The position numbers and the translations under genes were made by a program. From NCBI GenBank assembly GCA_027488865.1, contig JAIYAU010000024.1, forward strand, positions 62,001 to 126,000: 64,000 nucleotides of DNA, in the 5' to 3' direction. Below the pieces are notes generated by a model that saw nothing but the letters and a program-made list of their open reading frames with translations, had not been told where the DNA came from and ran no database searches. Within the stretch, counting starts at the first letter, position 1, and each line of letters opens with the position of its first letter. Positions 3,117 to 59,588 of this stretch are shown piece by piece. This DNA is from Cytophagaceae bacterium. Its GTDB lineage: Bacteria; Bacteroidota; Bacteroidia; Cytophagales; UBA9547.

Positions 3117-3500
3117 CTATTTCGAGAAAATCGACCTAAACATGGTTTTCACAGCGTCTAGGCTCAGTGGTTTTACAAAATATTTATCAATTCCGTAGCT
3201 TTGAACACTTTTGTCAATATCTTCTTTTTCACTTGAGGATGTTAATACAACAACTTCTATGTCTAGGTTAAGTTTTTTAAACTCATCCATAAAATCCCAG
3301 CCGTTCATTACGGGCATGTTAAGATCAAGGAAAATTATATCAGGAAGTTGATTTGTAACAGTTTGCAAATATTCTAAAGCGTCTTGCGCCGATATAAATG
3401 TCACCAACTCCGCTTCAGGATGATTCTTCTTTACCACCATTGTATTAAATTTAATAGTGAGCAAATCATCATCTATCATCATTACTAGGTATTGCTTCAT
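3117..3500 (-). CDS. Single-domain response regulator (CheY-like)
   Basis: This 127-residue protein consists only of a receiver domain. The acidic cluster is Asp10-Asp12, the phosphoacceptor is Asp59 (FLDLNMP), the switch Thr is Thr87 (VVLTSS) and the conserved Lys is Lys110 (FVKPLS). There is no output domain, so it must signal by protein contact, either to the cognate kinase or to an unknown partner. It is the last gene of the minus-strand run, 18 nt after the histidine kinase, which is its obvious partner. Confidence 0.92.
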   Translation of the reverse strand: MKQYLVMMIDDDLLTIKFNTMVVKKNHPEAELVTFISAQDALEYLQTVTNQLPDIIFLDLNMPVMNGWDFMDEFKKLNLDIEVVVLTSSSEKEDIDKSVQSYGIDKYFVKPLSLDAVKTMFRSIFSK

Positions 3501-3518
3501 TTCTTAAATTTTTAAAAA

Positions 3519-4886
3519 TTAGTCCTTGTTTAATGTTATTTTAAAAACAGTCCCCTCGTTAAGAATACTTTCAACTGAAATATCTCCGCCCATCATTTGT
3601 AAATTAGTTTTAGCCAAATAAAGACCAATACCTTTTCCTTCAATGTTTCTATTAAATCTATTATACAGGCCAAAAATGCGTTCTTTGTATTTTACTAAAT
3701 CAATACCCTGCCCATTGTCTCCAACAATTAAGGTAACCAGACTCCCCGATTCGTGAGATATTATACGTATATGAGGCGAAAGGTTGTCTCTTTTATATTT
3801 GATAGCATTATGTACCAAATTAAATAAAACACTGTTTAACAGTGTTTTAATAGTAAATACGGTAAATTCGTCAGGAAAAAATTCTTCAATTACGGCTCCA
3901 CTTTTTTCTATTTCTGCATTTAGAGAAATCTTTATACTCCTAATAATATCTTTTAGTTTTACATGTTCTTTTCCTTCAAGTAGATGTTTTCTAGACTTTA
4001 AAACAACATTTAAGTCTGATAAAATACCATCAAGGTTATCTGCGGCTAACGAGACATTTTCTATGAGTTCGTTATTTGTATCAAGATCTTGGTTTGTTTT
4101 GTCATACATATCTAAAAAGCCTTTGATATTACTTAAAGGAGCTCTTAGGTTATGTGACACAATAAAATTAAAACTTTCTAGACTGGAATAACTTTTGGAC
4201 AAATCTGAGAATAACTTTTTTATATTTTCTTCAGAAACGATGCGCAAGTTGATCTCTTCTTCTAATTTTTTTTGCTTTGATAGTAAATTGTTTGATAGTA
4301 AATTATAATATATAGAATAATTATAAAATAAACCCAACATTAAAAACAAGTTAAAAACCATGTTTAAAGAATATATATCGAAGAAAAATATTTTAAAAAT
4401 TACAGGATATAGTGGTTTAATATTTAACTTAAAATAGAAAAGTAATATATAAACCAAAACGTAGGTTAAAAAAGCAATAAAAATATTTCTCTTCTCTTCT
4501 AATTTGAATAACCAAAAAATAAATAATGGTGATGTATAAAGATACAAATGAAAACCCGAATCAAAACCTAACATATATGTAATAGAAACTACACTAAGCG
4601 AAGTAGTAAGAATTAATATAAACTTAGACCAACTGTATTTATTAACTTTATTTAATAATACTACTAGTGAAAAAAATATATGAGAAATTAAAATAATTAA
4701 AAATGGAGGCAATAATTCATAATAATAAAATACAAAATAGTATGGTGATGATGTAAACAGACAAAATAAGCAAAACTTGTTTATAGACCTTAATTTGTAA
4801 TTATTTGCTGTGTCATCTGTTGATACAATACCAGCATCTATCCATGCAGTTAAAAAGGATGATATATGTTGCTTTAACTGTGTCAA
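3519..4886 (-). CDS. Membrane-bound sensor histidine kinase
   Basis: The first ~200 residues hold about six hydrophobic segments with very short loops and no recognisable extracellular sensor domain, so the signal may be sensed in the membrane. A short coiled coil leads to a HisKA dimerisation domain with the phosphorylated His245 (VSHNLRAPLSN). The ATPase domain follows, with the N box (LVHNAIKYK), G1 box (VGDNGQGID), F box region and G2 box (GKGIGLYLAK). The start is TTG, overlapping the TGA stop of the upstream cyclase-like gene as TTGA, so translation is likely coupled. The family is clear; the stimulus is unknown. The context suggests it senses something linked to the isoprenoid product or the membrane. 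Confidence 0.9.
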   Translation of the reverse strand: MTQLKQHISSFLTAWIDAGIVSTDDTANNYKLRSINKFCLFCLFTSSPYYFVFYYYELLPPFLIILISHIFFSLVVLLNKVNKYSWSKFILILTTSLSVVSITYMLGFDSGFHLYLYTSPLFIFWLFKLEEKRNIFIAFLTYVLVYILLFYFKLNIKPLYPVIFKIFFFDIYSLNMVFNLFLMLGLFYNYSIYYNLLSNNLLSKQKKLEEEINLRIVSEENIKKLFSDLSKSYSSLESFNFIVSHNLRAPLSNIKGFLDMYDKTNQDLDTNNELIENVSLAADNLDGILSDLNVVLKSRKHLLEGKEHVKLKDIIRSIKISLNAEIEKSGAVIEEFFPDEFTVFTIKTLLNSVLFNLVHNAIKYKRDNLSPHIRIISHESGSLVTLIVGDNGQGIDLVKYKERIFGLYNRFNRNIEGKGIGLYLAKTNLQMMGGDISVESILNEGTVFKITLNKD

Positions 4887-5539
4887 TTTATTGATTTTGC
4901 TTTCTTAAATATATAAATGTAATAAATATCAAGTAAAAAACACACTAAACACATACTAATCAACCAAGTATTTTCAGGCCAACGTAATATACACATTAAG
5001 CTGATCATGGCTGTGCCTATACATTTTGTCCAAGCGGTAGTAAAGCTCAATACCGACTTGTCTTCGAGACGAATAAACATCAATACATACAAAGATGAAA
5101 TTAGAATATTGATCACATAAGCCGAATTCGCTCCAATAGGATTATCATAATTGTTTTTATAAAAAAAGTACAAAACTATTAACCACGAAACAAGAGCAAA
5201 AGAAAACAGCTCCTTAAAATATGGAATAAATGGTTTTGTAACCTGCTTGTTGCCATATTTATAAAAACTATAAACTATAAAAATATCTAAAACAAACCAT
5301 AGTTTGTAACCTATACCCAAAACTGCACCCATATTTTGTTCAAACACAAACCCCCAAAGAAACTCCCACGTGAAGTTTGCGCATAATACTGCAGCAGGCA
5401 TTTCAACAAATTTATGTTTGATAATGTTTTTGATGATATAAGCATAGTTTACTAGCCAAAATACAGCACCTATACCAAAAAGAATTAATTGTAGAGGAGT
5501 GTAATAGTCTAAATTGAGCCAAATAATACCTAAATTCAT
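4883..5539 (-). CDS. Integral membrane protein resembling Pyr4/PaxB-type terpene cyclases
   Basis: The 218-residue protein has about seven hydrophobic helices. Its pattern matches what I recall of the fungal membrane terpene cyclases (Pyr4, PaxB) and their few bacterial relatives: a GxGxxxWLxNY block in helix 1, LCANFTWEF in helix 2 with Glu59, LWFVLDIFIVY in helix 3, CILRW in a late helix, and Asp204 in the last helix (CFLLDIYYIY). In Pyr4 one Glu and one Asp at these places protonate the epoxide or olefin of a prenylated substrate. Family length is 220-250 residues. It lies 18 nt after a phytoene-desaturase-like flavoprotein gene and overlaps the kinase gene. Similarity is judged by eye; no prenyltransferase is in the window and the substrate is unknown. 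An alternative is a lycopene-cyclase-like membrane protein. Confidence 0.6.
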   Translation of the reverse strand: MNLGIIWLNLDYYTPLQLILFGIGAVFWLVNYAYIIKNIIKHKFVEMPAAVLCANFTWEFLWGFVFEQNMGAVLGIGYKLWFVLDIFIVYSFYKYGNKQVTKPFIPYFKELFSFALVSWLIVLYFFYKNNYDNPIGANSAYVINILISSLYVLMFIRLEDKSVLSFTTAWTKCIGTAMISLMCILRWPENTWLISMCLVCFLLDIYYIYIFKKAKSIN

Positions 5540-5557
5540 ATGATTAATATTTAATTG

Positions 5558-7258
5558 TTAAAAAAGTCTTGCGATTTTTTTAAGAAAGCCCATAATCAAT
5601 GGCACACCAAAAGGTAATTTACCATTCCAAGGCAAACCTTTTTTAAACCTCATTTTATCTTTCCATCTAAAAATACCTAGGATCCAAGGTTCGTGTAAAT
5701 CCCAAACCTTGCAATAGGCATGTCTTTTGCCTGTTGCGTCAATCACTGCATTTACGGCTCTTCTTGCTGCCTCATTAGCACCTTCCATGGTGGCAAGATC
5801 TGTATTGGTTTTTACAAAATCCGAAGCTATAAATAGATTTTCCACATCTGTATAAGCAAACGGCCTGAGCGTCCATGTGTTTTTATTATTAACTAGGAGG
5901 GGCTCTTGATTGATGGCAGGTACAGTTGGCACAATGCTATCGTCCAAATTCCAAGAGTGAAGGTGTTTTTTAGTCAAAACCACCTTACCATCTACATTTA
6001 AGCTACGTGATAATTGCTCCCAACATTCTTCCACAATTTCTTTAGGAGTACAGTCTTTTGCCTTTTTGCCATATAGCACCCCGGCAGAATCCCAATCTGA
6101 AATATCAATAGATAAAATTCCTTTCACGTCACCATCACCATATTTACTCCAATCAAAATCTTCCCAAAATTGCGCCTGGGAAATTGACGTTAAAGCCCAA
6201 GGTGTATCAACATAAATGGTGTGACCATGATTAATATCTACGTTTTCAGTTAGATACAACTGCAGACCATTCATCCAATTTACGTTTTTGGCTAACTCCA
6301 ACACATTATCAAGCGTAGGATCTATTGCTAATAAATCATTGTTGATGAGTTTTGCAAGCGCTTCCACCGGCATTGCACTTATAAAATGATCTCCTTTTAT
6401 GATGGTTTGTTCAGTTACACCATTTTTCTCGAATTCAACAATTACACTGTCAACCTTTAACCGGTCTTTGCACTTGATTTCTATTACTTTGGCATGGGTA
6501 TAATATTTTAAACCCTTTTCTTGCATAATTTTAAGCCATGGCTCTATCCAAACGTCATTGGTAGGGCCATTTAAAATCCTGTCACTACTCATACCTGGCT
6601 TCATAACATCAAAAGCCAACTGAAGAAGGATATCTCCTCCCGTTTTGGTGCTTACCGTTTCTGCCCTTGCAGCTACGAGCGTTCTTGTAAGACCACGTGC
6701 TAATAGTGTTTTATATGCTTCTGAAAATCGATCTGCTTCAATAAACTCCCACCAACCGATTCTTTCATATTCTTGCTTACGTCGTTCGTAACAACTAGTC
6801 ATTAGTTGCCAAATTCTTTCAGAAAAATACTCCTTTTCTTCTGCTGTAAGTCCTAAATCTATTCCTGCATCCAAGACAAGATATTTCTTGATTTCGGCGA
6901 TTGATCCTGGAAATTTAGCAGGCATGTAAAACGACTGCTTATCAAAACGTGCTACACGTATTTCAGAAGTTTGAACCAAGTTGTCATAAACGGTTTTACC
7001 GTTGCCCAAAGGAATCTCCTTCATAGTGGCAGTTACATGCCTATAAAAACGTGGGAAAAATCTAAACCCATGTTCTCCAGGCAATGGAAACCGACCACCC
7101 ACTGCAGAGTCAGGCACTTCTGTGCTTCGTGCTTTACCGCCAGGGATTGCTTTTAGCTCATATACCTCAACTTCGTAATTTCGTTTAATAAGTTCATGGG
7201 CAGCGCTTAGTCCAGCTACTCCACCACCAAGGATTACTATTTTTTGTTTAGGATGCAT
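5558..7258 (-). CDS. FAD-dependent oxidoreductase, phytoene desaturase/hydroxysqualene dehydroxylase-like
   Basis: An N-terminal dinucleotide-binding motif (VILGGGVAGLSAAHEL) is followed by an acidic strand end and the KAIPGGKARS segment of amine-oxidase/carotenoid-desaturase flavoproteins. The GEHGFRFFPRFYRH motif is typical of the COG3349-like branch that includes hydroxysqualene dehydroxylase. The C-terminal FAD segment is NLFIASDFVKTNTDLATMEGANEAARRA. I therefore expect an FAD enzyme acting on an isoprenoid or other lipid, with no transmembrane anchor. ATG 7258 is preferred to the in-frame codon at 7279 because it starts seven residues before the nucleotide-binding strand. It is first in a run with the cyclase-like gene, kinase and regulator, and a palindrome lies just upstream. 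Confidence 0.8.
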   Translation of the reverse strand: MHPKQKIVILGGGVAGLSAAHELIKRNYEVEVYELKAIPGGKARSTEVPDSAVGGRFPLPGEHGFRFFPRFYRHVTATMKEIPLGNGKTVYDNLVQTSEIRVARFDKQSFYMPAKFPGSIAEIKKYLVLDAGIDLGLTAEEKEYFSERIWQLMTSCYERRKQEYERIGWWEFIEADRFSEAYKTLLARGLTRTLVAARAETVSTKTGGDILLQLAFDVMKPGMSSDRILNGPTNDVWIEPWLKIMQEKGLKYYTHAKVIEIKCKDRLKVDSVIVEFEKNGVTEQTIIKGDHFISAMPVEALAKLINNDLLAIDPTLDNVLELAKNVNWMNGLQLYLTENVDINHGHTIYVDTPWALTSISQAQFWEDFDWSKYGDGDVKGILSIDISDWDSAGVLYGKKAKDCTPKEIVEECWEQLSRSLNVDGKVVLTKKHLHSWNLDDSIVPTVPAINQEPLLVNNKNTWTLRPFAYTDVENLFIASDFVKTNTDLATMEGANEAARRAVNAVIDATGKRHAYCKVWDLHEPWILGIFRWKDKMRFKKGLPWNGKLPFGVPLIMGFLKKIARLF

Positions 7259-7470: not shown

Positions 7471-10400
7471 ATGATAAGAATTATATTATTAGGCGTTTTC
7501 ATGTTTTTAATCACCGTTGGATATGGTCAAATTGCAATAGACATATCTAGCAAATCCACATATAGTTGTCCTTATGGAACAGACACCTTGGTGGTGAACA
7601 TCGAAAATGGTAGCCCTCCTTATTCTTTTGATTTATTAAGCGATAGAACAGGAGTTGTGAATTCTATTACTACCCAATCAAATTCGATTAAAATTGGAAT
7701 AGATCTACAAAAAGATGGATTAACCTATTCAATTAATAGTGTAACTGATAAATCTCAGCAAACACAAGAGGTGCAGGCCACTTTTAGTTTTACCCAAATT
7801 CCCACACCAAATGTTAGTTTTTCTTCATCAACTTATTTTTATAATTCAGGTGATAAAGTTACCGTAGATTTGGATGTTTCATCATTTTCAGGTAGTGCAA
7901 TTATTAAAATTGAAGGCAGTGAGAGTTCTACCTTTGAAATTGTAGAACAAAACGGTGGTGCGTCATTTTCAAATGTATATTTTAGCGATAAAACCTATAA
8001 CATAATTCAAGCTACTGATTTTGACTGTCCCTTTTCTATCTCCACAACACCAGTTAATGTAGTTAAAGCCGAAGACCCATGTTTAGGGCTGGATGTAACC
8101 CAAGCGATAACTCTAAATAGTGTATGTGATGGTGATGAAATTCGTTTTAACATAGGTAATTGGGAAGCTGGTAATATATTTAGAATAGAGGGTTTGCCTC
8201 AGGAGGAAAACTACATTCATTCCAGTTCTAATGATTTTGGTATTATCAATCAATCATTAGCTATAGGAGATTATTCATTGTCGTTTTTTGTAAGAAAAAG
8301 TGAAAATTGTACAAATGAGTTTAAGTTAGACCAATCGGTTAACTTTAGTGTATTTGCTAGACCTACCGATACCTTAAGTTATTTGGTAAGTGAACCAACT
8401 TGTGCAAATGGGCTAGTTTCTGAGTTTGTAATAAAAAATACACAAGCTGGTTACGATTATAGAACCATTTTTAATGGTGTTTCTATTCAGGACCAAACAT
8501 CAGCCGGAGGAGACTTAAAATTCACTTTGGATAATTTTAATATTTTTTCCGAAAATTCCGTTTTTGTTTATGCTAATAATGGAGAATGTTCAGTTCCTCT
8601 CGAAAAAATTTATACCTACGGTTCTATTAATTCTAATGCAAAAACAAGTGTTGTAGATTCTTTAGCGTTGGTAACTTTATATGACTCATTGGGTGGCGAT
8701 TTATGGACTAATAATTCTGAATGGAAATCTTCGAGTCCTATTTCTAAATGGTTTGGTGTTACTATTTCTTGTGGTAAAGTTATTAAACTGGATTTGCAGT
8801 CGAATAATGTAAAAGGACGTATTCCTCAAGCTATTGGTGATTTGACAGCATTAGAGAATTTAAACTTAAGTTTTGATAGCATCGTAGGTAGGCTTCCTTC
8901 TAGTTTTTCCAATTTAACAAAATTGCAATATCTAGATTTAGGCAATAGTTACCTTTCTGGAACGTTTCCTCAAGAATTAACTAGTCTCAACAATTTAACG
9001 GTTTTAAATATCAATGGAAATTATTTAGAAGGGAAAGTGCCAACTTCAATTAGCAACCTCACAAAACTTAATGAATTTGACATCTCTTTTAATTCTTTCA
9101 CCGATACGCTACCTGTTTTTGATTTCATAAGCCCAAATGCCCCCGTCATTGATTTAAGTTTTAATAATTTTTCTTTTGTGAGCTTGGTTCCAACTTATCT
9201 TGCCCAAAACTGGGAAGTGTTTGACGCCTATGGTCAAAACAATATAAGTGCTAGTTTTGATACGCTTGTAAATGAAGGGACAAGTTTAACTCTCACGCTC
9301 ACACAGCCACAAATAAATGGCACTAAATTTCAATGGTTTGTTTCCTTTGGAGAGGGAGCTAGTAGATTAATTGGTGATACCTTACCTTCAATCACTTTTG
9401 AGAACATATCACTCAATGACGCACGTACTTATTTTTGCCAATTAACACATCCATTGTTATCAGAATTGGAAATTTATAGTGGTGATTTTAATGTGGAGGT
9501 CTGTAAAAAAGTTTCAATAGCTGATTCTTTAAAACTTACCCGAATCTATAATGCAACAGGTGGCGCCAATTGGATTAATAAAACTAATTGGTTAACAGAT
9601 AAACCAGTGACTGATTGGTACGGAATAAAAACTGATTGTGGCATACTTACTGAAATTAACTTACCAAATAATAATTTGATTGATACTTTGCCACAAGAAA
9701 TTGATTCATTGTATAGCTTAACAAGACTAGATTTACATGGCAATAATTTGTCTAACAACAAATTGGACAATATCATAACATCTAAACCAAACCTCTCTTA
9801 TTTGGATTTAAGCAAAAACAAATTTTCAGGAGGCTTTCCCAACGTTTTAGCAAAAGGGACAGAAATAGAACATCTTGATTTAAGCGACAATCTTTTATCA
9901 GATAGCATATTAAATTTCTTTAATGGATTTTATCGAATTAGATATTTTGATGTTTCTAATAATAAGTTTGTAGGTAAGATTCCTTCCAGTATTGCACAAG
10001 ATTCTCTTAAAATATTGTATTTGAACAATAATCAATTTTCCGATACTTTAGGCAGTAGACTATTTTTAGCAAAAAGTCTAGTTGTATTTGATGCGAGCAA
10101 TAACAACCTGACAGGTATCATTCCCCAAGACATTGTTGGGTGGTCAGATAGTATTATCGTAATTAACCTGTCTAATAACAAATTGAGTGGAAACATACCT
10201 TCAGGACTTTGGAAATGTAAAGGTTTACTCAGCTTGAATTTGAGCAAAAATGAACTTTCTGATACAATTAGCAACGATATTAAGGATTTAAGTTCTCTTT
10301 CTATCTTAGACCTAAGTGATAACTTATTTGAGGGTAGTATTCCAAACAATATTGGTTTGTTGAGTGAATTACAGAGTATAAACCTTTCACAAAATAATTT

Positions 10401-11754
10401 TAGTGGTACATTAACTAAAGGAGTAGGCGGATTAAATAAACTTATTGATTTTAATGTTACCACCAATCAAATCTCTGGTAAAATTCCTTCCGAATTTGCC
10501 AATGTATCTACCCTTGAAACATTAAAATTAGGCAACAACCAATTTCAAGATTCTATCCCATTGTCATTTGTTACCCTTCCAAAGCTTAAAGTTTTGGATG
10601 TATTTAACAACAGCATAAGTTTTATTCCTGTTTTAAAGACAATCACAAGCTTGGATGAATTATATGTCGGCAATAACAAACTTACCTTTGAACATCTTTT
10701 GCCAAATGTGGGGATCAACGTATTTCAATACGCTGTACAAGATAGTGTATTAGAAAAAGAAGTTGTAAAAATTAGCAGTACTCAATCAATAAGTTTAAAT
10801 TCATTATTAAATGGTGCTGGTAATCAATATCAATGGCAACGAAATAATATCAATATTGTGGGAGCAACACAACCGGTGTTTATTAAGCTAAATGCTACAA
10901 AAGCAGATACAGGCACCTATGTTTGTAACATAACCAATCCGCTTTTGCCAATGTTAACGCTTCATAGAAGACCATTGAAACTGATAGCTTGTGATCCTGT
11001 AATTCCTACCCCCATAATAAAAGTTGCAGACTCGTCAGCATGTTTATCAAAAACACTCAAAGGTCCCTCTGGTTATAAATTTTATGAGTGGTACCTAGAC
11101 ACATATAAACTATCAAATGCAAATGATTCTGTATTAGTGGTTGTACAAAATGGAGGTTACAGATTGTCCATAGAAGACAATACCCAATGTAAAGCCTTCT
11201 CTTCAGCACTGCCCATTAGTGTTTTTGGCACATTAGCAACACCACAAATAGATCAATCACAATTAAGTAGTGATAAAATACTTAAATCAAATAAGGATCA
11301 AGCATCTTATCAATGGTACGTAAATGACAAAATAATAATTGGTGCAACCAAAGTATCCTTACCAATTTATTACAACGGAACTTATACATTAGAAATAGGA
11401 ACCACAGATTCTTGTAGGTTGTGGTCTAAGGAGGTTGTGGTAAATATAAATGGTCTACCCAATATAGCAAAAGCGGCTTTTTATAGTTCAGAAGCCAAGT
11501 CTGTTAATATTCCTAACGCTCAAACTTCGTTGGCACAAGTTTACCCAAATCCAACAACAGGAATTATTACTTTAGAACTTGCGGGAACAGACATTAAAGC
11601 AGAAGTAATTTGTAGAGATATGAGTGGTCGTATACTCAAAATTTTCAAGACCAATTCCACTACAACCATAAATACCAATTTAGGTCAAGGAATATATATT
11701 TTAGAAATAAAAACAGGAGGAAATACCCAATGGGAAAAAATAGTTATAGAATAA
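7471..11754 (+). CDS. Leucine-rich-repeat surface protein with T9SS type A sorting domain
   Basis: A signal peptide (residues 1-19, cut near VGYGQ) shows export by Sec. Residues ~20-390 are beta-rich domains. Two LRR blocks follow, about 400-560 and 680-1090, with plant-type repeats (LxxLxLSxNxLSGxIP), each opened by a conserved cap with a GGxxWxNxxxW-like sequence. Two immunoglobulin-like segments (ending TYFCQLTHP and TYVCNITNP) follow the blocks. The last 72 residues (YPNPTTG ... GQGIYILEIKTG ... KIVIE) are a type A T9SS sorting domain, so it crosses the outer membrane and is probably attached to the surface. LRR proteins of this sort bind proteins or polysaccharides; the ligand is unknown. 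It heads a run of four co-directional genes. Confidence 0.9.
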   Translation: MIRIILLGVFMFLITVGYGQIAIDISSKSTYSCPYGTDTLVVNIENGSPPYSFDLLSDRTGVVNSITTQSNSIKIGIDLQKDGLTYSINSVTDKSQQTQEVQATFSFTQIPTPNVSFSSSTYFYNSGDKVTVDLDVSSFSGSAIIKIEGSESSTFEIVEQNGGASFSNVYFSDKTYNIIQATDFDCPFSISTTPVNVVKAEDPCLGLDVTQAITLNSVCDGDEIRFNIGNWEAGNIFRIEGLPQEENYIHSSSNDFGIINQSLAIGDYSLSFFVRKSENCTNEFKLDQSVNFSVFARPTDTLSYLVSEPTCANGLVSEFVIKNTQAGYDYRTIFNGVSIQDQTSAGGDLKFTLDNFNIFSENSVFVYANNGECSVPLEKIYTYGSINSNAKTSVVDSLALVTLYDSLGGDLWTNNSEWKSSSPISKWFGVTISCGKVIKLDLQSNNVKGRIPQAIGDLTALENLNLSFDSIVGRLPSSFSNLTKLQYLDLGNSYLSGTFPQELTSLNNLTVLNINGNYLEGKVPTSISNLTKLNEFDISFNSFTDTLPVFDFISPNAPVIDLSFNNFSFVSLVPTYLAQNWEVFDAYGQNNISASFDTLVNEGTSLTLTLTQPQINGTKFQWFVSFGEGASRLIGDTLPSITFENISLNDARTYFCQLTHPLLSELEIYSGDFNVEVCKKVSIADSLKLTRIYNATGGANWINKTNWLTDKPVTDWYGIKTDCGILTEINLPNNNLIDTLPQEIDSLYSLTRLDLHGNNLSNNKLDNIITSKPNLSYLDLSKNKFSGGFPNVLAKGTEIEHLDLSDNLLSDSILNFFNGFYRIRYFDVSNNKFVGKIPSSIAQDSLKILYLNNNQFSDTLGSRLFLAKSLVVFDASNNNLTGIIPQDIVGWSDSIIVINLSNNKLSGNIPSGLWKCKGLLSLNLSKNELSDTISNDIKDLSSLSILDLSDNLFEGSIPNNIGLLSELQSINLSQNNFSGTLTKGVGGLNKLIDFNVTTNQISGKIPSEFANVSTLETLKLGNNQFQDSIPLSFVTLPKLKVLDVFNNSISFIPVLKTITSLDELYVGNNKLTFEHLLPNVGINVFQYAVQDSVLEKEVVKISSTQSISLNSLLNGAGNQYQWQRNNINIVGATQPVFIKLNATKADTGTYVCNITNPLLPMLTLHRRPLKLIACDPVIPTPIIKVADSSACLSKTLKGPSGYKFYEWYLDTYKLSNANDSVLVVVQNGGYRLSIEDNTQCKAFSSALPISVFGTLATPQIDQSQLSSDKILKSNKDQASYQWYVNDKIIIGATKVSLPIYYNGTYTLEIGTTDSCRLWSKEVVVNINGLPNIAKAAFYSSEAKSVNIPNAQTSLAQVYPNPTTGIITLELAGTDIKAEVICRDMSGRILKIFKTNSTTTINTNLGQGIYILEIKTGGNTQWEKIVIE

Positions 11755-54800: not shown

Positions 54801-57800
54801 TTATTTAGAACTATTTAATTTGGCTTCTTTAGGCAGCACTTGCATGTTTTCTTTGATTAAATCTATTTCAGTAAACAACAAGTTTAATTTTTTATTTGTG
54901 TTAATGTTGGCTTGTTCTAAGGATTCTATTTTATTATTTTGATCTTTTAAGGCTTCAATCAAAATAGGAATTAAGCCCTGATAATTAACTGAGAGATATC
55001 CGTTGCTATTTTTGGTAACTAGCTCAGGTAAAACAAGTTGAAGCTCTTGTGCAACTACACCATACTGGGTACCTTTTATATTTAGACTATCTTTTAACAA
55101 ATAGGTATAACCATTAAGTTGTATTATTAATTCTAATGCCTTGACGATAGGTACTATGTTAGTTTTGTAACGTTTATCGCTTAAGGTAAGCAAGCCAGCG
55201 GCTGAGGTTATAGTTCCTCCTGCATTAAGGCTAGTAACGGTTACGTTATTAAAAATGCCATCTGCAGCAGTAATATTTGCAAAAGTTACGTTGTCCGTAG
55301 TTCCCAAACCAATTGAAAATCTGGCACCATCAGCATCATTTGCCCCTGTACCTCCATTCGCCAGAGCCACAGTTCCTGTGACATTGTCTGCTGTACCTGA
55401 AACATTTCCCGTTACATTCCCTATCAAATTTCCGGTGATAGTTCCAAACGTAACATTATCAGTTGTTCCTAAACCTAAGTTGGTTCTTGCCCCTGCTTGG
55501 GTAGTTGCTCCTGTACCTCCATTCGCCAGAGCCACAGTTCCTGTGACATTGTCAGCTGAACCTGAAACATTTCCCGTTACATTCCCTATCAAATTTCCGG
55601 TGATATTTCCAAACGTAACATTATCAGTTGTTCCTAAACCTAAGTTTGTTCTTGCCCCTACTTGGGTAGTTGCACCAGTACCTCCATTAACGAGGGCTAC
55701 TGTACCAGTTACATTACTAGCTGTTCCAGAAATATTTCCTGTGACATTAGAAATTACAGTTGCAAAAGTTACAACATCGGAGGTTCCTAAGCCTAGATTA
55801 GATCTGGCACCAGCTGGTGAGGCTGCACCAGTGCCACCATTAGTAATAGCAACAATACCTGATACATTAGAGGCTGTTCCACTTACATTTCCAATCAAAT
55901 CACCAGTAATGTTACCTATAAAAGTTGCAGATACATTACCAAAAGTTACGTTGTCTGTAATACCTAGTCCCAAATTGGTTCTAGCTCCTGAAGCTGAAGC
56001 TGCGCCCGTACCGCCATTAGCTAAAGAAACTATACCCGAAACACTTGTTGCAGATCCAATTACATTACCAGTTAAATTTCCTGTAACATTTCCAGTTAAA
56101 TTTCCTGATATTGTACCAAAAGTCACATTATCTGTCCCACCTAGCCCAAGGTTAGTTCTCGCTCCAGCTGCTGAGGCTGAGCCAGTACCTCCATTTGCTA
56201 AAGAAACTATACCAGAGATATTTGTCGCAGTTCCTGTTATATCACCAGTCACATTACCTGTCAAATTGCCCGTTACATTCCCTGTTAGATTTGCAGTGAT
56301 ATTTCCAAATGTCACATTATCAGTGGAACCCAATCCCAGATTGATTCTAGCACCAGTTGCAGAGGTAGCTCCTGTTCCACCGTTGGCGAGTGCTACAGTA
56401 CCTGATACTGAGCTGGCTGTACCTGTTACATTACCAGTTAAATTTCCAACAAAGCCTGTACTTGCAGTTATTACAATACCATCAATATTAGAAAAAACCA
56501 CATTGTCAGAGGTGCTTAGTCCAAGTCCAACTCTAGCACCTAGTGCGGTTGAAGCTCCAGTTCCTCCATTGTTTATGGCTACAACCCCTGACACATTTGT
56601 GGCTGTACCAGAAATATTTCCACTTAGGTTTCCTGTTACATTTCCAATGAGGTTGCCAACAAAATTGGTAGCTGATATTTGATTCCCATTAATATTCTTA
56701 AAGCTAACGTCATCAGATGTACCAAGCCCTAAATTAGATCTAGCGCTAATTGCTGAAGTAGCACCAGTACCACCGTTAACTAATGGTACTACCCCAGAAA
56801 TGTTTGAAGCAGTTCCCGAAATGTTTCCAACTACATTTCCAACCACATTTCCAGTTAAATTGCCAACAAAGCCAGAACTTGCTGAAATAATTTTTCCGTC
56901 AATATTGCTAAATGTAACGTTGTCTGTACTGCTTAACAATAAATTTGCTCGAGCTCCTGCAGAGGTGGTAGCACCAGTTCCTCCGTTTGTTAAAGGCAAT
57001 ATAGAGGTGATGGTTGTTGCTGTTCCAGATATGTTTCCTGTAACGTTTCCTGAAAGATTTCCGGAGAAACTACCAATTACCTGAGACGCATTTACAATGT
57101 TAAACGTTACATCATCCGTGTTAGATAATCCAATACTTGATCTCACACCAGCAGCATTAGTGGCTCCTGTTCCACCATTTGCCAATGCTACAACGCCTGT
57201 AACGTTATTAGCAGTTCCACTTATATTTCCAGTTAAATTTCCATTGATGGTGGTAGCTGTAATGGAAGTACCATTAATTGCATTAAAGGTTACATTATCT
57301 GTATTACCAAGTCCCAAATTTGTTCTTGCTAGTGAGGCGTTATTGGCTCCAGTTCCTCCATTTGCAACTGCCGCCACTCCAACAATGTTTGTTGCATTTC
57401 CTAACAGATCTCCAGTTACATTACCAGTTAAATTACCTACAAATCCACCCGTAGAGGTAATAATTTTACCATCTATATTGTTAAAAACTACATTATCTGA
57501 ATTTCCAAGTCCTAAGTTATTTCGTGCATTCGTAACATTCGTTGCACCTGTTCCACCATTAGCTATTAAAAGTGTTCCGGTTATATTTGTTGCAGTTCCG
57601 CTGATATTTCCCGTAACGTCGCCAATAAGGTTACCTGTAAATGTATTTGCTGTAATGGACGTGGAACTAATACTATTGGTTGCCAAACTTGCAAAGGTAA
57701 CATTGTTTGTAGTACCTAAGGCCAATGCGGATCGAGCACCAGCAGCAGTTGCTGCTCCAGTTCCGCCATTTGATATAGAAACTATTCCAGATAAGTTGGT

Positions 57801-59588
57801 AGCTGTACCATTTACATTTCCAGTTAAGTTTCCAACAAATCCACCCAAGGAGTTTATTTGATTTCCAATAATATTATTAAATGTAACATTGTCTGTTGTT
57901 CCTAAATTTAGACTATTTCTAGCTCCATCAGGAGTGTTAGCTCCTGTGCCTCCATTTTCTATTTTAACTATTCCTGTTACGTTAGTTGCAGTTCCTGTAA
58001 GACTGCCACTAATTTGGGATGCAGAGATTGTTATGGCGTTGATGGTATTAGCATTAACGCCACCAAAAGTAACATTATCACTAGTGCCTATTAGCAGGTT
58101 ATTTCTTGCCTCGTTCGCTGAGGATGCACCAGTGCCACCATTATTAAGCGAAACAATGCCATTCACATTGGTCGCATTACCAGTTACATTGCCTGTGACA
58201 TTACCAGTTAGACTACCCACGAAACCACTCGAAGCGGTAATTTGATTGCCACTAATGTTCCTGAAACTTACGTTATTGGAAACGCCGAGTTCAAGTTTAG
58301 AGCGCGCTCCAGCTTCGTTGTTAGCGCCAGTGCCTCCGTTTACAATATCTATAATTCCGGTTACATTACTTGAAGTACCAGAAACATTTCCAATCACATT
58401 ACCAGTTAACATACCACTAATAGCGCTTGCAGTAATATTGTTTGCATTTAGGGCAGTTGCATTCACTCCTCCAAAAGTGACATTGTCGGTTATACTTAAG
58501 CCAAAAGCCTCTCTAGCACCGGTGGCACTTGTGGCGCCAGTTCCTCCATTAAGTACTGATATTATACCAGTAACATTAGAAGCATTTCCTGAAACATTTC
58601 CTGAAACATTACCAACTAGGTTTCCTGCAAAACTACTTACTGCAGTTATTTGTTGGCCTGTGATATTACCAAAAGTTACATTGCTTGTATTGCTTAATTC
58701 TAAGTTAGAGCGAGCACTTGAAGCATCGATTCCACCTGTACCACCATTTGCCAGACTTATTATACCCGTAACGTTACTGGCTGTACCACTTACATTGCCA
58801 ATCACATTTCCAGTTAGGTTTCCAATAATTGAGGTGGCATTTACATTATTAGCAGTTAATGTGGTTGTTGCAAGATTTCCAAAAGTGACATTGTCGTTAA
58901 TGCCTATTCCTAAATTATTTCTTGCACTTGATGCGTTTGTGGCACCAGTTCCTCCATTGGCAATGTTGAGGATACCGGTAATATTTGTGGCTGTGCCATT
59001 AATATTGGAATTTACCAATTGTGGCAGACTAAAAACAAACCCATTCCCCGATTGATTAATTTCTATTTCGTCTTTAGTGCCAATAAGCTCAAGCGTGTCG
59101 CCAAGGTCAAGTGTTATACTGGTAATTTTATTGGAGATTTGAACCGAACTATTTTTTAACACATTATTTAACAGTGACCCTGTAGCAACTTTTATGGATG
59201 TGATAGCACCGTCTTGAATTTTCGAGGTACTTAAAATGTTGTCTTCTAGCATACCATTTACAACTGTGCCTGGCAAAATCTCAAATCGCATTCCCAAAAC
59301 CCATTTGTTTACTTCCCAATAGTAAAATCTATTGTCTGTAATATCATAAACTAGCAAGCCATTATTATCACCGTTGTTTAGTGCCGTGATAAAGCTAGCT
59401 GATACCCTTTCAGAGGTGGTCATTCTTGGAACCAAGAAACCTTGATTTTTGGTAGGAGACTCTAAATCTAAAACTGCATTTTTATTTGGTGTTTTAGTAC
59501 CAATTCCAACGGTGTTTTGACCAACTAAATAATTGGACACAAGAGCTATAATAACTATTGCAACATGATAAGAATATAATATTTTCAT
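54801..59588 (-). CDS. Large tail-fibre-like repetitive surface protein with S74 intramolecular chaperone domain
   Basis: A signal peptide ends near LVGQ23. Residues ~24-195 (NTVGIGTKTPNKNAVLDLES) are a conserved head seen in Bacteroidota tail-fibre-like proteins. From ~198 to ~1465 there are 20 repeats of 51-78 residues, each with NGGTGxxxxxxAR and DNVTF blocks and GNLTGNVTG runs. The last 126 residues form an S74/endosialidase-type chaperone: Ser1470 and Lys1475 (SDKRYKT), then GVVAQELQLVLPEL and a coiled coil. S74 domains fold a trimer and then cut themselves off, so the product should be a trimeric fibre. No T9SS sorting domain is present. It heads the four-gene operon. Confidence 0.85.
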   Translation of the reverse strand: MKILYSYHVAIVIIALVSNYLVGQNTVGIGTKTPNKNAVLDLESPTKNQGFLVPRMTTSERVSASFITALNNGDNNGLLVYDITDNRFYYWEVNKWVLGMRFEILPGTVVNGMLEDNILSTSKIQDGAITSIKVATGSLLNNVLKNSSVQISNKITSITLDLGDTLELIGTKDEIEINQSGNGFVFSLPQLVNSNINGTATNITGILNIANGGTGATNASSARNNLGIGINDNVTFGNLATTTLTANNVNATSIIGNLTGNVIGNVSGTASNVTGIISLANGGTGGIDASSARSNLELSNTSNVTFGNITGQQITAVSSFAGNLVGNVSGNVSGNASNVTGIISVLNGGTGATSATGAREAFGLSITDNVTFGGVNATALNANNITASAISGMLTGNVIGNVSGTSSNVTGIIDIVNGGTGANNEAGARSKLELGVSNNVSFRNISGNQITASSGFVGSLTGNVTGNVTGNATNVNGIVSLNNGGTGASSANEARNNLLIGTSDNVTFGGVNANTINAITISASQISGSLTGTATNVTGIVKIENGGTGANTPDGARNSLNLGTTDNVTFNNIIGNQINSLGGFVGNLTGNVNGTATNLSGIVSISNGGTGAATAAGARSALALGTTNNVTFASLATNSISSTSITANTFTGNLIGDVTGNISGTATNITGTLLIANGGTGATNVTNARNNLGLGNSDNVVFNNIDGKIITSTGGFVGNLTGNVTGDLLGNATNIVGVAAVANGGTGANNASLARTNLGLGNTDNVTFNAINGTSITATTINGNLTGNISGTANNVTGVVALANGGTGATNAAGVRSSIGLSNTDDVTFNIVNASQVIGSFSGNLSGNVTGNISGTATTITSILPLTNGGTGATTSAGARANLLLSSTDNVTFSNIDGKIISASSGFVGNLTGNVVGNVVGNISGTASNISGVVPLVNGGTGATSAISARSNLGLGTSDDVSFKNINGNQISATNFVGNLIGNVTGNLSGNISGTATNVSGVVAINNGGTGASTALGARVGLGLSTSDNVVFSNIDGIVITASTGFVGNLTGNVTGTASSVSGTVALANGGTGATSATGARINLGLGSTDNVTFGNITANLTGNVTGNLTGNVTGDITGTATNISGIVSLANGGTGSASAAGARTNLGLGGTDNVTFGTISGNLTGNVTGNLTGNVIGSATSVSGIVSLANGGTGAASASGARTNLGLGITDNVTFGNVSATFIGNITGDLIGNVSGTASNVSGIVAITNGGTGAASPAGARSNLGLGTSDVVTFATVISNVTGNISGTASNVTGTVALVNGGTGATTQVGARTNLGLGTTDNVTFGNITGNLIGNVTGNVSGSADNVTGTVALANGGTGATTQAGARTNLGLGTTDNVTFGTITGNLIGNVTGNVSGTADNVTGTVALANGGTGANDADGARFSIGLGTTDNVTFANITAADGIFNNVTVTSLNAGGTITSAAGLLTLSDKRYKTNIVPIVKALELIIQLNGYTYLLKDSLNIKGTQYGVVAQELQLVLPELVTKNSNGYLSVNYQGLIPILIEALKDQNNKIESLEQANINTNKKLNLLFTEIDLIKENMQVLPKEAKLNSSK
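55225..59000. repeat. Internal repeat array of the tail-fibre-like gene (20 units)
   Basis: Units of about 155-235 nt, each coding for the NGGTG ... DNVTF pattern. The two copies beginning at 55345 and 55510 are almost identical over their 165-nt (55-codon) period, while units nearer the protein N-terminus have drifted. This suggests recent duplication or gene conversion at the C-terminal end of the array. Confidence 0.85.

Follow-up and report, generated by a model that had tools for sequence, protein, structure and literature searches.

Pyr4-like transmembrane terpene cyclases (TMTCs) belong to meroterpenoid gene clusters, and we take PaxB to be a further member of this group. Those of fungal and bacterial clusters, such as Pyr4, XiaH, TylF and ZigF (PMC13307353; all articles given by PMC number are cited here from portions of their text), have the Pfam domain PF25129, seven helices and a conserved pair of Glu and Asp residues. 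These features are shared by a 218-residue protein encoded within a stretch of 64,000 nucleotides from a Cytophagaceae bacterium of the phylum Bacteroidota (assembly GCA_027488865.1, contig JAIYAU010000024.1, positions 62,001 to 126,000), the whole of which we refer to as the window. A canonical meroterpenoid cluster has the prenyltransferase UbiA and a flavin adenine dinucleotide (FAD) epoxidase by the cyclase, whereas the cyclase in the window adjoins an amine-oxidase-type flavoprotein and a kinase in an operon of four genes. Oxygenases of the MPAB/Lcp type, to which the mycophenolic-acid enzyme MpaB and the rubber oxygenase Lcp belong, match PF09995 above cut-off beside the TMTC in relatives of this operon, and it is their slot that the flavoprotein takes in the window.

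The operon also recalls systems in which lipophilic molecules are sensed at the membrane. In the CqsA-CqsS autoinducer system of Vibrio, the biosynthetic gene for CqsA lies beside the gene for the receptor CqsS. The latter is a receptor kinase with six helices whose ligand, CAI-1, is lipophilic (PMC4821796), and the likeness is one of analogy, not membership: a domain search of the operon and three neighboring genes found no enzyme of the CqsA type, terpenoid-type enzymes being encoded in the operon instead, and the output of the transducer is interchangeable among relatives, unlike in CqsA-CqsS. Likewise, the membrane domains of class III adenylyl cyclases (ACs), such as Rv1625c/Cya and the mammalian enzymes, have the same six-helix fold, and some relatives of the operon place a related domain before a nucleotide cyclase. 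In the window, the six-helix domain is fused to a kinase, is attached to a candidate ligand-making operon and has no detected sequence similarity to solved ACs. The membrane anchor of Rv1625c has been called an orphan receptor, and CqsS can replace it in a chimera that is driven by CAI-1 (PMC4821796). Furthermore, the membrane domains of mammalian ACs have recently been reported as lipid receptors (PMC11606603), and the question has been reviewed under a title that speaks of a "blind spot" (PMC12414865).

Our analysis shows that bacteria of several phyla carry an operon that combines two likely isoprenoid-modifying enzymes with interchangeable membrane signaling proteins. The reading that we prefer, tentatively and with close to even confidence, is that the operon is a terpenoid-lipid signaling cassette, in which the enzymes would make a membrane terpenoid and the six-helix domain would sense it. 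The features of the window on which this reading is built are the following.

5558-7258, minus strand: open reading frame (ORF) of the flavoprotein, with an ATG start; an alternative TTG start extends it to 7279
4883-5539, minus strand: ORF of the Pyr4-like TMTC, 218 residues, seven helices
5363-5365, minus strand: codon of Glu59 in the motif NFTWEF, candidate catalytic acid (position check and alignment)
4928-4930, minus strand: codon of Asp204, candidate catalytic acid (conservation in the alignment)
3519-4886, minus strand: ORF of the membrane histidine kinase, 455 residues, TTG start, overlapping the TMTC gene by 4 nucleotides
4212-4886, minus strand: six-helix sensor domain, residues 1-225 of the kinase (AlphaFold model and structural alignment)
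3117-3500, minus strand: ORF of a lone receiver-domain response regulator, 127 residues, with Asp59

The original prediction, made from the letters of the window, had described four packed minus-strand genes at 3117-7258 that join a Pyr4/PaxB-like cyclase to a desaturase-like flavoprotein and a two-component system. This layout was borne out, with gaps of 18, -4 and 18 nucleotides, and Glu59 and Asp204 are located where they had been placed. The checks proposed for the cyclase, a hidden Markov model search and a structure prediction, were both run and agree with the family named. The protein matches PF25129 with 63.4 bits (E 3.2e-17, gathering cut-off 27), its AlphaFold model has seven helices (predicted local distance difference test, pLDDT, 94.5; predicted template modeling score, pTM, 0.89), and the acids are kept in homologs. 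Judged by family and model, the protein is thus a Pyr4-type TMTC, the cyclase activity itself being predicted. The model comes closest to the solved folds of the KDEL receptor (Z 13.5), cystinosin (12.6) and SWEET (11.5), and the next row, which is unrelated, scores 6.0. The solved-structure matches listed for the model include no terpene cyclase, and a sequence search of solved structures with the protein gave no match.

Asp204 is an Asp in 73 of the 76 sequences that reach this position, and in 22 of 22 in a set that was not selected on the motif. Among 24 sequences that had not been chosen for their Glu, the window included, 19 keep Glu59. Its conservation in the 74 retrieved loci described below (L045-L118) is by construction, because WEF was part of the search pattern, a selection that did not apply to Asp204. 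The five exceptions carry Ala and all fall within one genus code (f19, g70; L011, L015, L018, L019 and L021). No oxidoreductase or transducer match was found at these five loci in the 2.7-3.6 kb examined, and this branch is possibly non-enzymatic.

By sequence, with a match to Amino_oxidase (PF01593, E 1.1e-18), the flavoprotein is a member of the amine-oxidase/phytoene-desaturase superfamily that fills the oxidoreductase slot of the cassette. Its counterpart in L045, a Cytophagales locus that keeps the exact window order of flavoprotein, TMTC, histidine kinase and receiver and has a TMTC 73% identical to ours, is 70.9% identical and occupies the same position. Among solved structures, a sequence search returned only sarcosine oxidase (E 0.00094). 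The best NCBIfam match was to the hydroxysqualene dehydroxylase HpnE, an identity that we rejected at 63.7 bits, far below the cut-off of 283.05. The two-component system was identified as foreseen: the kinase matches HATPase_c (2.8e-16) and, below threshold, HisKA (E 2.4e-5; 24.7 vs. 26.9 bits), the receiver matches Response_reg (4e-17) and has no output domain, and the predicted phosphorylation sites His245 and Asp59 are both present.

With an alignment of five TMTCs as the query, we retrieved 74 loci from contigs representing one genome per species, and these were scored together with four loci from a survey of the phylum (L027, L031, L032 and L033) and the window, giving 79 loci. The contig titles of the 74 loci mention Bacteroidota, Ignavibacteria, Kapaibacterium, Acidobacteria, Gemmatimonadaceae, Desulfobulbaceae, Deltaproteobacteria, Fibrobacteria, Leptospiraceae, Candidatus Uabimicrobium and a few others. 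An oxidoreductase lies within 2.5 kb of the TMTC in 63 of the 79 loci (48 of the MPAB/Lcp type and 15 of the window flavoprotein type, never both together), and it is located immediately upstream on the same strand in 43 and 15 loci, respectively. In 62 loci, a signal transducer is either fused to the TMTC or encoded at most 2.5 kb away on one strand or the other. In 47 loci, it is encoded by the next gene downstream, in the orientation of the TMTC gene, or forms part of the TMTC protein itself, and these comprise 29 histidine kinases (one of them fused), four SpoIIE proteins, four nucleotide cyclases and 10 proteins of the Ser/Thr-kinase type. Both partners are present in 45 of the 64 loci that have at least 1.5 kb on either side. 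Genes of at least 100 codons that are adjacent to the TMTC (n = 137) include 41 for MPAB, 13 for flavoproteins and 47 for transducers, whereas those four or more places off (n = 396) include none for MPAB, none for flavoproteins and 32 for transducers. Chance is therefore a poor account of the linkage of the two enzymes. The median intergenic gap is 5 nucleotides upstream of the TMTC (51 pairs) and -4 nucleotides downstream (40 pairs). A survey of whether the genes stay linked across Bacteroidota had been proposed; they do, and more widely than was then supposed.

Pfam searches confirmed representatives of the partner families, namely MPAB in L027, L030 and L031, SpoIIE in L027, Guanylate_cyc in L028, and proteins with a kinase-AAA-GAF-output architecture in L030 and L076. 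The order varies in a few loci: the MPAB gene is situated past a large transducer in L109 and L114, and neither partner is on the TMTC strand in four distant loci (L115-L118). We also considered ORFs of about 160 residues upstream of the TMTC in L047, L049 and L055 as possible partners, and rejected them as they look by eye like housekeeping genes, which we take to be lumazine-synthase-like and YajQ-like.

The signaling proteins differ in their output, and in two TMTC clades the membrane domain is the part that persists. The regions that precede the output domain in 35 directly downstream kinase, SpoIIE and cyclase proteins are 201-291 residues long in 34 cases and 403 residues in L033. When these regions were compared as group profiles, proteins with different outputs matched each other (97.3 and 97.4% for histidine kinases with SpoIIE, 99.6% for one histidine kinase group with the cyclases, 94.0% for SpoIIE with the cyclases), as compared with at most 1.4% for pairs involving four control families. 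A tree of the TMTCs, built with a quick method and supported by the Shimodaira-Hasegawa-like approximate likelihood ratio test (SH-aLRT), implies at least seven changes of output type and three of oxidoreductase type. Within one TMTC clade (support 99), the SpoIIE protein of L055 and the kinase of L063 share a sensor (E 5e-40), and within another (support 100), so do the cyclase of L098 and the kinase of L075 (E 2e-27). The AlphaFold model of the window sensor (pLDDT 90.2) aligns with Rv1625c (7yzk) at Z 17.3 over 195 residues with a root-mean-square deviation of 3.9, and with human AC9 at Z 12.5, while the next-best rows have Z scores of 8.4 and 6.8. According to this model, the window kinase has a membrane domain with the class III AC fold. 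The original prediction had explained the kinase and receiver by feedback on the isoprenoid. This is not the best reading of the data, since the output type changes while the membrane domain persists in the two clades, which fits better with a receptor for the product. Thus, what had been observed in the window was confirmed, and the interpretation given to it is partly supported.

Gene order, co-occurrence, protein families, folds and the swapping of outputs with the sensor kept are computed results. From these we infer a substrate, a product, a cyclization, a binding event and a phosphotransfer. The oxidoreductase, a flavoprotein in the window and an MPAB/rubber-oxygenase-type enzyme in most relatives, would oxidize a membrane isoprenoid. 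The seven-helix cyclase would next protonate and cyclize this molecule with the help of Glu59 and Asp204, giving a membrane-soluble terpenoid, which the transducer encoded by the following gene may then bind through its six-helix AC-type membrane domain. In the window, the transducer would be the histidine kinase, phosphorylating the lone receiver, and in relatives the related membrane domains would be coupled to a SpoIIE phosphatase or a nucleotide cyclase. We are more hesitant about a broader hypothesis, possible though in our view on the doubtful side, that such operons form a cross-phylum class of lipid signaling systems, with a terpenoid as the native ligand of the AC-type six-helix receptor and with kinases, phosphatases and nucleotide cyclases as plug-in outputs.

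An isoprenoid substrate is indicated by the chemistry of MpaB, which oxidatively cleaves a farnesylated intermediate (PMC11934065), taken together with the family of the cyclase and the likeness of the MPAB proteins to rubber oxygenases, the structures of which are matched by the MPAB protein of L103 (E 2e-7). The window genome contains one SQS_PSY (squalene/phytoene synthase) gene that adjoins a desaturase-like gene, six UbiA places and at least one MPAB copy, all of them away from the operon. In two loci (L070 and L074), a GH3-type gene and a metallophosphatase gene accompany the form of the cassette with a nucleotide cyclase, from which one might speculate about an acid product. As for the output, a receiver-nucleotide cyclase gene lies within 8 kb downstream in 10 of the 28 loci of the kinase type (L053, L063, L072, L080, L083, L087, L090, L091, L101 and L102), and the kinase and cyclase forms may therefore share a second-messenger output. 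A cyclic-nucleotide output is unlikely in the window organism, because a search of its genome for PF00211 gave no match.

Several observations weigh against the proposed cassette. We assume a catalytic role of the Glu/Asp pair in the fungal Pyr4-type enzymes, a role that was sought in the literature and not found. No MPAB or flavoprotein gene is nearby in 16 of the 79 loci and no transducer in 17, and only some of these loci are at contig ends. A kinase-receiver gene immediately follows the TMTC without an oxidoreductase in L041 (2046-4823), one of nine stretches from family f19 and outside the cassette lineage, so kinases can adjoin TMTCs without a full cassette. The window-type histidine kinase group has no direct profile match to the cyclase group (0.6%), and sensor pairs from different clades, such as L098 and the window, do not match. 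With Foldseek alone, the E value of the sensor against Rv1625c is 0.36 (probability 0.99), and the sensor profile has no relevant sequence match among solved structures, including any solved AC, up to E 10. The 17 transducer ORFs of the kinase-AAA type near TMTCs give no match to the six-helix domain, which was also sought and not found in the AAA-type neighbors of L107 and L110; L059 and L112 show partial matches only, in stretches beside the output domain. In L093 (3834-6251), a TMTC is naturally fused to a histidine kinase via a region without hydrophobic segments, and the six-helix domain was not found there save for a brief stretch of similarity ahead of the kinase domain.

The sensor family also extends beyond the cassette. 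Among 395 genomes sampled from the phylum, 38 carry it, at no fewer than 61 places in all, and the three top-scoring places are the TMTC-linked sensors from which the search profile had partly been built. A second clear member in the window genome (L124, 7382-10036 of contig C33, E 2e-12) has no TMTC, MPAB or flavoprotein within the 16 kb examined, and the same holds for all 21 unlinked sensor loci (0/21), for which 9-16 kb was examined. In a quick tree, the grouping of all linked sensors into one clade was rejected (approximately unbiased test, p-AU 6e-6). The family thus also works without the cassette, and either the sensor has been recruited repeatedly or the unlinked members descend from linked ones.

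The fusion in L093 and the 17 kinase-AAA ORFs without the six-helix domain keep alive the hypothesis that the TMTC is itself the receptor, by a logic like that of the sensory rhodopsins: the oxidoreductase would make the ligand, the TMTC would bind it and signal by contact to the neighboring transducer, and the six-helix domain would merely be a coupling partner. Kinase-AAA transducers of this sort lie beside TMTC genes that are accompanied by MPAB genes, as in L076 and L103, and the folds nearest to the TMTC, given above, are those of receptors and transporters. However, the TMTC of L093 retains both candidate catalytic acids, that of L034 in the same phylum is accompanied by UbiA and a FAD_binding_3 protein as in meroterpenoid clusters, and the membrane sensor has been kept through the output swaps, for which there would be no need if the TMTC were the only receptor. 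We therefore regard this explanation as unlikely, while taking it seriously.

We also considered the possibility of ordinary regulation, with the operon making a pigment, membrane lipid or antibiotic of terpenoid nature and the two-component system controlling expression on an unrelated cue. Regulators beside biosynthetic genes are common, and a receiver without an output domain could serve feedback. Control of expression predicts DNA-binding outputs, whereas the slot directly downstream is occupied by kinases, nucleotide cyclases, SpoIIE phosphatases and kinase-AAA proteins; an AraC domain is present in a hybrid kinase on the opposite strand in L028, and no systematic search for DNA-binding outputs farther away was made. 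Furthermore, no additional gene family is repeated in more than five loci among the 211 unannotated neighbors, and we consider ordinary regulation quite improbable. Yet another hypothesis, to which we give very little weight, is that the cassette senses the condition of the membrane or of the quinone pool, with the two enzymes clearing or mending a damaged isoprenoid and the transducer reporting how much of it is present. The substrate would then be a resident isoprenoid of the membrane, as could be the case for a four-gene operon without a dedicated precursor gene in a genome with squalene/phytoene synthase and UbiA genes elsewhere, but the patchy spread of the TMTCs described below is a misfit for general housekeeping.

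TMTCs with PF25129 above cut-off were found in at least 24 of the 395 phylum genomes. Within the family, one genome in 10 had such a TMTC, namely the genome from which the window comes. Up to seven candidates were scored per genome in many rows of the PF25129 and MPAB surveys and in the sensor survey, so that these counts are lower bounds. Not all members belong to cassettes. In L034, genes for UbiA, TMTC and the FAD_binding_3 protein are consecutive, and in L035 UbiA adjoins the TMTC; both are likely meroterpenoid clusters. The nine f19 stretches contain no MPAB and no nearby flavoprotein, with one weak and distant match in L038, and L042 has a weak kinase match beside the TMTC on the opposite strand. 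A search of genome contigs for close relatives with the single window protein found none.

Two other large genes were observed in the window. A protein of 1427 residues that combines numerous leucine-rich repeats with Ig-like domains and a Por secretion C-terminal sorting domain is encoded at 7471-11754 on the plus strand, divergent from the cassette, and a protein of 1595 residues with a C-terminal Peptidase_S74 endosialidase-type chaperone domain is encoded at 54801-59588 on the minus strand. A promoter scan was near chance, with 26 found against 23.0 expected.

The bacterial Pyr4-like cyclases had been thought rare, which holds only in a relative sense given their number in the phylum and the 1107 bacterial candidates of a 2026 survey that retained 264 by their terpenoid neighbors (PMC13307353). 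The available portions of that article do not mention signaling cassettes, and we infer that its neighbor filter may have set cassette-like loci aside. Our literature search, judged by titles and the openings of abstracts and mostly without subscription papers and preprints, found no description of the cassette, which suggests that the proposed arrangement for making and sensing a terpenoid has so far been undescribed.

Our findings point to bacterial Pyr4-like cyclases beyond the classical biosynthetic clusters, and the proposed cassette can be tested in bacteria already in culture, among them Algoriphagus species, Hymenobacter setariae and Portibacter marinus. If the hypothesis is true, bacteria of several phyla would signal with cyclized terpenoids, a chemistry for which we found no bacterial signal-receptor system among the titles and abstracts searched. 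The six-helix domain of the AC type would then gain a genetically linked candidate ligand pathway, in which natural ligands are paired with the receptor fold.

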